From: Flavobacteriales bacterium
Lineage (GTDB): Bacteria; Bacteroidota; Bacteroidia; Flavobacteriales_G; Salibacteraceae
Length of the DNA: 33,650 nucleotides
Assembly (NCBI GenBank): GCA_020435995.1
Contig: JAGQYO010000038.1
Location: 1 to 33,650 of the forward strand
Direction: 5' to 3'
In this document: positions 2,432-5,865 of the stretch, piece by piece
Layout of the letters: the number at the start of each line of letters is the position of its first letter
Position numbering within the stretch: the first letter of the stretch is position 1
The notes under the pieces: generated by a model
The model's input: the letters and a program-made list of their open reading frames with translations, nothing else
Told to the model about the DNA's origin: nothing
Databases searched by the model: none
Translations under genes and position numbers: made by a program

Positions 2432-4204
2432 ATGATACTACAAACCCTCGATTGGATCATTATTGCGTGCTACTTCGCGTTGTCGTTGTTTATTGGATTC
2501 TGGTACAGAAAGCAGGCGGGAAAAAGCCTTACAGATTTTTTTCTTGGTGGTCGGAATATGCCCTGGTATGTGGCCGGTATTTCGATGGTTGCTACCACCT
2601 TCGCTGCTGACACCCCGTTATGGGTTACTGAAGTAATTGCCCAGCACGGTATTAGTGGAAACTGGCTTTGGTGGAATATGCTCATCGGGGGAATGCTCAC
2701 CACATTTTTCTTTGCCAAACTCTGGCGCAGAGCCGATATTCTTACCGAGTTGGAGTTTATCGAATTGCGATACGGTGGCGCGCCAGCTCGTTTTTTGAGA
2801 GGGTTTAAGTCGGTGTATATGGGTTTGTTCCTCAACGTCATTATTATAGGATGGGTCAATTTTGCTTTGATGACCATATTGTCGGTATTTTTTGATATTC
2901 CGTTTTACGACAACACCATTCCCTTCTATGAAAACCAAGTACTCTGGTATGTAGGTGGAGCCATGCTAATAACGGCGTTTTATAGTTTACTTTCGGGCCT
3001 CAAAGGTGTGGCTATGACGGATACCATTCAGTTTATAATTGCCATGGGAGGATGTATCATCATGGCCATCTTGGTATTAAATGCCCCCGAAGTAGGTGGA
3101 ATTACTGGATTGAAAGAAAAATTACCAGCGTGGAGATTCGACTTTTTTCCGAATTTGGATACCGGTGGAGGAATAGTTGAAAAAATAGGTACATACAGCA
3201 TTACGGTTGGGGCCTTTTTGACATTTGGAATGGTGCAGTGGTGGGCCAGTTGGTACCCAGGAGCCGAACCCGGCGGTGGAGGATATGTTGCTCAAAGAAT
3301 GATGAGTACCCGAAGCGAAAAGGAATCTTTGTGGGCCACTTTGTTTTTTCAAATTGCGCATTATTGTTTGCGCCCATGGCCCTGGATTATTGTAGGGCTA
3401 TGTGCCTTGGTGCTGTATCCCGATTTGCAACCCGAGCAAGCTGGGCAAGGCTTTGTATTGGTTATGCGCGATTACCTTCCTACTGGCATAAAAGGGCTTC
3501 TACTTGTGGCTTTTCTTTCGGCTTATATGAGTACCATTTCTACCCAGTTGAACTGGGGGGCAAGCTTTTTAACCAATGATTTGTACAAACGATTTATCAA
3601 GCCAGAGGAAAAATTTGAGTCAGAAGAAAAGGCTCAGGATAATTATGTAAAGGCAGCCCGAGCATTTACTGTTTTGATCATGGTGGTAGCTTTTTTTGTT
3701 ACAACTCAGATCAGCACCATTGATGCCGCTGCTAAGTTTTTAATACAAGCTGGAGCGGGCTTGGGCATGGTATTAATTCTTCGATGGTATTGGTGGCGAA
3801 TAAATGCTTGGAGCGAAATTTCGGCATCCTTGGCACCCATGCTGGGTTACGCATTTGCCAATTATTACTTGCATCTTGATTTTCCAGGCAATTTTTTGAT
3901 CACCGTTGCATTTACCACTGTAGTATGGCTTGTAGTCACCTTTGCAACCAAACCAGAGTCAACAGCGACATTGGAGGTGTTTTATAAGCGTGTTCGTCCG
4001 CCTGGATGGTGGGGTGTATTTAAAAACAGCACCGTTACCCAATCTGTTTCTGGTTTGGTGGTCTCGTGGTTAGCTGCGATTGTGATGACTTATTCCATTT
4101 TGTTTTTTATGGGTTACCTCATTTTTGGAAATACAATGCTTTGTGTGTTGTGGCTCGCGGTGGCAGTCGTTTCACTTTTTGTTTTGGCAAAAAGTATGAA
4201 GTAA
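2432..4204 (+). CDS. sodium:solute symporter (SSS family)
   Basis: A 590-residue polytopic membrane protein of the sodium/solute symporter family. It begins with a hydrophobic helix (LDWIIIACYFALSLFIGFWY), followed by the family's early motif TDFFLGGRNMPWYVAGISM, where the unwound first core helix contributes to sodium binding. About 13-14 hydrophobic segments follow, with a conserved block around QWWASWYPGAEPGGGGYVAQ and LLLVAFLSAYMSTISTQLNW. It would use the sodium gradient to import a small organic solute. The substrate (sugar, sialic acid, amino acid or other) cannot be read from the sequence. The ATG at 2432 is the only ATG in frame after the stop at 2342-2344. It converges on the histidine kinase gene with only five bases between stops, leaving no room for a separate terminator. 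Confidence 0.9.
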   Translation: MILQTLDWIIIACYFALSLFIGFWYRKQAGKSLTDFFLGGRNMPWYVAGISMVATTFAADTPLWVTEVIAQHGISGNWLWWNMLIGGMLTTFFFAKLWRRADILTELEFIELRYGGAPARFLRGFKSVYMGLFLNVIIIGWVNFALMTILSVFFDIPFYDNTIPFYENQVLWYVGGAMLITAFYSLLSGLKGVAMTDTIQFIIAMGGCIIMAILVLNAPEVGGITGLKEKLPAWRFDFFPNLDTGGGIVEKIGTYSITVGAFLTFGMVQWWASWYPGAEPGGGGYVAQRMMSTRSEKESLWATLFFQIAHYCLRPWPWIIVGLCALVLYPDLQPEQAGQGFVLVMRDYLPTGIKGLLLVAFLSAYMSTISTQLNWGASFLTNDLYKRFIKPEEKFESEEKAQDNYVKAARAFTVLIMVVAFFVTTQISTIDAAAKFLIQAGAGLGMVLILRWYWWRINAWSEISASLAPMLGYAFANYYLHLDFPGNFLITVAFTTVVWLVVTFATKPESTATLEVFYKRVRPPGWWGVFKNSTVTQSVSGLVVSWLAAIVMTYSILFFMGYLIFGNTMLCVLWLAVAVVSLFVLAKSMK

Positions 4205-4209
4205 TGCAA

Positions 4210-5865
4210 CTAAAGGTGGGTAAGCATTTTTTGCATAAGATCGCTTAGATCAATAGGCTTGGAAATAAAATCATTAATTCCTGATTTTACATATTTTTCT
4301 TTTTGAAGCACCTCTACCGAGGTAGCTGAGATGGCCAATACGGGCAACTCTTTTGCGCTGTATTTCTTCCGAATCTTCATAGTAGCTTCAAAACCATCCA
4401 TTTCAGGCATTTGTAAATCCATCAGAATGAGATCGTATTTTTTTGCCTCTAATTTTTCCAAAGCAATTTTGCCATTCTCGGCGTGTTCCAACCCTGGAAA
4501 TGTTTTTTCAAGGTATTTTGATATGATCAAGCGGTTTATTCTATTGTCATCAACAAGGAGAATTTTCTTTGACTTCACTTCCAAGATGCTAGGTGTGATT
4601 TCACTAGCTTTAAGTTTCGTTTGGCCAATCTTTAATTGAAGGGTAAATGAAAAAGTACTTCCCTTATTCGGTTTTGATACCAGATGAATTTCACCATGGA
4701 ATAGTTCTACCAGTTTTTTGGTAATGGTGAGCCCAAGACCTGTTCCGGCCATCTCTTCATTTGTATGGTTTCGACCACCTACAAATCGCTCAAAAATAAA
4801 TTCCTGTTTTTCTTCTGGAATACCAATCCCAGAGTCTTTCACGCTAAATTTTACCTCTGCATACTCTTCGCTAATTGAGAGCATGCCAATTTGCAATTTG
4901 ACATATCCGTCAGGGGTAAACTTAATGGCATTGTTGATCAGGTTAAATGCGATTTGGCTTAGCCTTGTGCGATCACTTTCGATATAATCGGGCAATCGGT
5001 CATCAAATTCAAAAAGAAGTTCAAGGTTTTTGGCGTGGGCTATAGGCGTCAACGTATCTACTATTTTTTGAAAATGAGCCTTAAAGGCGAACTCCTTATT
5101 TTGGAGTATCAGGTTATCCGATTCCATTTTTCCGAAATCCAAAATGTCATTTACCAAGGAGTGTAAATTCTCTGCAGAAAACTTAATAAGTTGAAGGTTG
5201 TGGTTTTTATCCCTTGGAGTAGTAATTTCAGGTTGTAATTGAACCAAACCAATAATGGCATTGATGGGGGTGCGAATCTCATTGCTTAAAAAACTGATAA
5301 AATCTGATCGTGCATTTATCGCTCTTTTGGCGACAGCCACGGCATGGGTTAACTCCAAATTTTTGGATTCTAACTCGCGTTTGTTTTGAAAAAATTGTAG
5401 TGCGAAATAAGAAATTAATATGGCAAACAGACAGGAAATGATGCCGAGAATACTGATCAAAACCCATCGGAACTTTAGCGCGTTGCTGATGTCACTAAGA
5501 TCTTGACGGATGAGCTGAATACGTTTATTGATGACTACTGTAGTTTTAAAAAACAGGGTGGGATTGCTTGTTGCACCAATATCAGACAGAAAAGCGTCTA
5601 ACTCGCGGTCTGGCTCAAGGTCGTTGAGGCTATTGGCCAATTGATAATCGGCCAAAATACTTTTTTGATCTATTTGATCGAGGTAGGTAACGTCGTCAAC
5701 TATTTTGCTTAATTCGAGATTAACTTGGTTTAAAAGGCTGATAGATGCAACATACTTTTCTACCTTATTCTGAAGTTGAACCACGTCCGCAACCACAAAA
5801 ATTACCGCGATAATAAATCCGGTGGACAACAAAGGGAAGAACCAGAGTTTATTGTTTCTCTTCAT
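4210..5865 (-). CDS. membrane hybrid histidine kinase with Asn in place of the H-box His
   Basis: A 551-residue hybrid sensor kinase. It has a membrane helix at about residues 10-28, an extracytoplasmic sensor of about 100 residues, a second helix at about 133-158, a short coiled linker, a dimerisation/phospho-acceptor segment at about 185-250, an ATPase domain at about 290-410 and a receiver at about 434-550. The ATPase has its N box (NLINNAIKF), G1 (DSGIGIP), F box (FERF) and G2 (GTGLGL). The receiver keeps D439/D440, the phospho-acceptor D483 (LMDLQMP) and K536. The H box reads FLSNEIRTP, so residue 195 (codon AAT, plus-strand 5281-5283) is Asn where the family has the phosphorylated His. 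The domain calls are secure. Normal autophosphorylation is doubtful. No response-regulator gene is adjacent. Confidence 0.92.
   Translation of the reverse strand: MKRNNKLWFFPLLSTGFIIAVIFVVADVVQLQNKVEKYVASISLLNQVNLELSKIVDDVTYLDQIDQKSILADYQLANSLNDLEPDRELDAFLSDIGATSNPTLFFKTTVVINKRIQLIRQDLSDISNALKFRWVLISILGIISCLFAILISYFALQFFQNKRELESKNLELTHAVAVAKRAINARSDFISFLSNEIRTPINAIIGLVQLQPEITTPRDKNHNLQLIKFSAENLHSLVNDILDFGKMESDNLILQNKEFAFKAHFQKIVDTLTPIAHAKNLELLFEFDDRLPDYIESDRTRLSQIAFNLINNAIKFTPDGYVKLQIGMLSISEEYAEVKFSVKDSGIGIPEEKQEFIFERFVGGRNHTNEEMAGTGLGLTITKKLVELFHGEIHLVSKPNKGSTFSFTLQLKIGQTKLKASEITPSILEVKSKKILLVDDNRINRLIISKYLEKTFPGLEHAENGKIALEKLEAKKYDLILMDLQMPEMDGFEATMKIRKKYSAKELPVLAISATSVEVLQKEKYVKSGINDFISKPIDLSDLMQKMLTHL

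Follow-up and report, generated by a model that had tools for sequence, protein, structure and literature searches.

A hybrid histidine kinase with asparagine at the phospho-acceptor position, found in one lineage of Bacteroidia and possibly working without autokinase activity

Can a hybrid histidine kinase still serve its host once the phospho-acceptor histidine is gone, or is such a gene a kinase in decay or an error of the assembly? This question is raised by a gene on the minus strand (positions 4210-5865, 551 amino acids) of a 33,650-nucleotide stretch of DNA, hereafter the window, which corresponds to contig C139 in a genome of 3.76 Mb and 207 contigs, the sole genome of its genus in our sample. 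The encoded protein comprises an N-terminal membrane/sensor part (residues 1-175, 5341-5865), a HisKA (DHp) domain (residues 185-249, 5119-5313), a HATPase_c domain (residues 298-412, 4630-4974) and a C-terminal receiver domain (residues 435-546, 4228-4563), all encoded on the minus strand. Pfam searches returned 45.6 bits for HisKA, 94.8 for HATPase_c and 92.5 for Response_reg, all above the curated cut-offs and in that order, so that the three domains and the arrangement of a hybrid histidine kinase are present. The H box lacks the phospho-acceptor histidine, since residue 195 is Asn within ARSDFISFLSNEIRTPINAIIGL, as read from the translated minus-strand frame 4210-5865. Judged from its sequence, the window protein belongs to the hybrid histidine kinase family by descent and not as an active kinase.

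The translated gene bears out the original prediction of Asn for His at residue 195, encoded by AAT at 5281-5283, except that this codon had been placed on the plus strand; the gene is read from the minus strand, and the plus-strand letters at 5281-5283 are ATT. One base change suffices for the replacement, as had also been proposed, and all five syntenic orthologues described below have CAT or CAC at this codon. Asn195 should abolish normal autophosphorylation and, if the base call is right, the residue essential for autokinase activity is missing and the protein would be a histidine pseudokinase by this residue criterion. In NtrB, His-to-Asn mutants lose autophosphorylation while phosphatase activity can persist, and the window protein, if real, would be a natural counterpart of such laboratory mutants. 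The source genome contains 22 HisKA matches. In 13 of them the H box was recognised by a motif search, and of these only the window gene lacks His; the other nine matches lie outside the motif.

The remaining catalytic features were then compared with what had been claimed for them. The statement that all ATPase boxes are intact is correct for the N, G1 and G2 boxes and fails for the ATP lid (residues 362-375, minus strand 4741-4782), where GG replaces a near-invariant QA at 363-364 and the near-invariant Gly373 is also substituted, the departures in the lid being Q363G, A364G, R370E and G373A. The receiver Asp483 (4417-4419), likewise said to be intact, was found in a domain that passes its Pfam cut-off, and D440, D483 and K536 are invariant among nine aligned sequences. 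Within the HisKA domain, E196 and T199 make up an ExxT motif and supply the acidic residue and the Thr/Asn required of a HisKA sensor phosphatase, but the motif is non-discriminating, as ordinary kinases carry the same residues. An AlphaFold2 model computed with nine sequences (mean pLDDT 80, pTM 0.49) gave the secondary structure expected of the DHp, CA and receiver domains and a mostly helical N-terminal part, with the ATP lid below a pLDDT of 50.

Full-length relatives of the window protein were found in genomes G008 (43%), G026 (36%) and G034 (33%), and two more, in G031 and G033, were added when the first 175 residues served as query; a search by this N-terminal part finds the gene in 6 of the 42 genomes of the order. 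These five syntenic orthologues span three other genera and share a common locus, consisting of ccm genes, DUF2520, a KdsC-like gene, UbiA and maf, followed by the kinase convergent with a sodium:solute symporter (SSF); upstream, the comparison reaches to the end of the fetched stretch. The symporter, which occupies 2432-4204 on the plus strand of the window, served as syntenic anchor. All five orthologues keep His at the acceptor position. The alignment of orthologues that had been put forward as a check thus points to a single-lineage lesion or an error and away from a conserved pseudokinase, and the loss of His is confined to one lineage as far as sampled. The kinase is absent from the syntenic locus of G032, a member of the genus of G031, G033 and G034, where maf and the symporter occur with no kinase between them, and from that of G027, which carries maf, DUF4139 and the symporter. 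Within 2432-5865 of the window the stops of kinase and symporter are 5 bases apart, and their convergence is kept in all six kinase-bearing genomes. In G008 the symporter (L119:8311-10121) is split into two frames of 331 and 225 aa, by a frameshift or an assembly error.

A contig scan yielded 80 further relatives, mostly matching the kinase/receiver part only, and every aligned one has His. The genes that neighbour the window kinase were found beside none of these 80, and for this reason they were used only as a conservation reference. The pattern N-E-I-R-T-P-[hydrophobic]-N-[AG] has a single match in the 42 genomes of the order and again a single match in 395 genomes of the class Bacteroidia, in both cases the window gene. 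With His in place of Asn, the pattern has 86 matches across those 42 genomes. A somewhat longer His pattern gave 161 matches in 80 genomes sampled from the class (summed from the table), from which about 590 His boxes are expected by extrapolation in a 295-genome class sample. In those 295 genomes, the His position is filled by a codon beginning with A, G or T in three matches, of which the window gene is the only kinase; the survey was defined by these three initial bases, with the C-initial codons for Leu, Pro, Arg and Gln outside it. The two other matches, with Gly for His in G094 and G105, were rejected, since they have in common only a conserved stretch of 76 bases with short, non-kinase frames, and the motif there looks like part of a tRNA. 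Kinases that lack His but have a receiver and an H box complete in all other respects are very rare in the sampled Bacteroidia genomes. No conserved Asn subfamily was seen beyond the window in the 42 order genomes or the 395 class genomes, and no relatives were found among virus contigs.

At the 96 columns conserved in at least 90% of 83 reference homologues, a conservation that is overstated because the relatives were chosen by exact peptide patterns, the window protein departs from consensus 18 times, G008 9 times, G026 12 times and G031, G033 and G034 27-31 times; at the 68 columns conserved in at least 97% of them, the counts are 6, 2, 2 and 11-15. On a tree fixed by the neighbouring proteins, the branch length of the DHp and CA domains is 0.82 for the window against 0.44 for G008, and that of the receiver 0.33 against 0.43. 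Relative-rate tests with three outgroups gave uncorrected p values of 0.016, 0.015 and 0.088 for faster change of DHp and CA in the window than in G008, and no difference between the two for the receiver, which is the most conserved domain of the window protein (61% identity to G008). A direct contrast of the DHp and CA rate with the receiver rate was not significant (p 0.06-0.57). These comparisons are suggestive only, and would be consistent with a kinase core, and not a receiver, that has changed faster in the window protein than in its closest orthologue.

The orthologues of G031 and G033 (L129:6325-7983 and L130:7819-9522) present the mirror image of this loss, as they keep His and have lost one or two glycines of the G1 box, where DTGIGI has become DNTIAV in G031 and DNAIGI in G033. 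The G1 glycines are present in G034 of the same genus (DTGNGI), and the damage in G031 and G033 may stem from a single event. Such damage would presumably abolish kinase activity. Between G031 and G033 the dN/dS ratio is 0.29 for the whole gene (bootstrap 95% 0.21-0.42) and 0.27 for DHp and CA (0.125-0.54), compared with 0.03-0.14 for four neighbouring genes; both orthologues are therefore under purifying selection, weaker than that on their neighbours, despite the damaged ATP site. From these ratios, selection still acts on an orthologue whose ATP binding is doubtful. The selection test covers this G1-damaged, His-keeping pair, and the Asn form is known from one genome. These orthologues seem able to dispense with autokinase activity. 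The original prediction had offered two readings, signalling without autophosphorylation or an assembly error, and the His-to-Asn reading stood up; what it lacked was a third option, suggested by these data, of a lineage-specific loss of His in an orthologue group whose autokinase activity is weakly constrained. In the same G031 and G033 comparison, dS differs strongly by gene, with about 0.2 for the kinase, 0.46 for the symporter and over 1 for DUF4139, perhaps by recombination.

How far, then, do these results separate the possible origins of Asn195? One would be a single wrong base in a fragmented, 207-contig draft of an organism that has His. It fits that one change is enough and that all five orthologues have CAT or CAC, and a reading of DNA that seeks oddities tends to select such errors. 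Other near-invariant kinase sites are also altered, however, which one miscall cannot account for, no other change of this kind occurs among the 395 genomes, and by our own estimate, assuming 1e-5 to 1e-4 errors per base and some 600-800 His codons in the surveyed genomes, far less than one such case is expected. We consider this explanation unlikely, and Asn195 is probably real in the organism and not only in the assembly. At the other extreme, a conserved subfamily of Asn-type histidine kinases with a chemistry of its own, such as phosphorylation at another site of the protein, has in its favour that the other boxes look usable, and nothing else; with a single occurrence in the class genomes and His in all syntenic orthologues, it is highly improbable.

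A more serious rival is early decay, in which His was lost by drift from a dispensable kinase that serves no function under selection in this lineage and whose frame is not yet broken. The scarcity of the gene within the order, its absence from the otherwise syntenic loci of G032 and G027 and the excess of departures at the 90% columns over G008 and G026 all fit this account, but the frame is open across 551 codons, the receiver is both the best conserved domain and no faster than that of G008, and the eroded orthologues of G031 and G033 are under purifying selection. Decay is a real possibility to which we would give rather less than an even chance. Our preferred reading, itself tentative and somewhat short of even, is a working histidine-less hybrid sensor, whose phospho-acceptor was lost in one lineage and which functions without autokinase activity. 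Still present are its membrane sensor, its ATP-binding boxes, the complete receiver and a DHp domain that carries the ExxT phosphatase motif, and the protein might work as a regulated phosphatase or as a docking or heterodimer partner of another kinase-regulator pair; alternatively, its receiver might be fed by another kinase. Any remaining function would then be that of a phosphatase, of docking or of phosphate acceptance. Against a working pseudokinase, the conserved H-box residues are by themselves no sign of a phosphatase, as ordinary kinases share them, the family can do without the gene, and no second Asn genome was found among the 395. A role independent of autophosphorylation is still credible because the two G1-damaged orthologues are under purifying selection, and since these sister orthologues are selected despite a compromised ATP site, the balance tips slightly from decay to a working pseudokinase. 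A bolder version of this histidine-less sensor, which we hold to be doubtful, is that a hybrid sensor at a fixed locus gave up autokinase activity in two lineages through different parts, the acceptor His and the G1 box, with phosphatase motif and receiver kept under selection, and that the conserved job of the group would be the removal or reception of phosphate.

Histidine pseudokinases are already known, and the window protein is a further example and not a new kind of system. DivL of Caulobacter crescentus carries Tyr550 at the His position, has no kinase activity and works through binding to DivK~P (PMC4211667). The window protein resembles it in having a DHp/CA core with the acceptor replaced, from which autokinase activity would not be expected, and differs, when compared by description, in having Asn and a C-terminal receiver where DivL has Tyr, the partners DivK~P and CckA, and weak ATP binding (PMC4211667). 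RcsC of Pseudomonas aeruginosa PA14 is a phosphatase by virtue of a Thr four residues after His, and adding the His mutation to T506A changed little, so that its negative role rests on this Thr and little on His (PMC3842833); RcsC has His, however, and acts as a phosphatase and in phosphorelay within the known PvrS/RcsB network, whereas a phosphatase role of the window protein is putative. RcsD (YojN) of E. coli, as cited in PMC3842833, is a natural sensor-like protein with a transmitter domain without His, but by its description it has another architecture and another role, phosphotransfer in the Rcs relay. The kinase-dead ChrS variant of Corynebacterium glutamicum still matters, heterodimers with its paralogue HrrS being one proposed route (PMC9491836), although it arose in laboratory evolution through a CA-domain frameshift and not through loss of His. 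If the window case is real, the group of orthologues provides intact, acceptor-less and G1-damaged cores from nature, with which one could probe what a hybrid sensor does in the absence of autokinase activity; a miscall or a decaying gene would be an ordinary case.

Two other minus-strand genes lie elsewhere in the window. A RhuM-family gene (PF13310, 1483-2136) is split between at least two frames (1822-2136 and 1483-1821) and is likely a pseudogene near the left end of the contig, and a frame of 251 aa (278-1033) encodes a PMT_2-type glycosyltransferase, possibly truncated.
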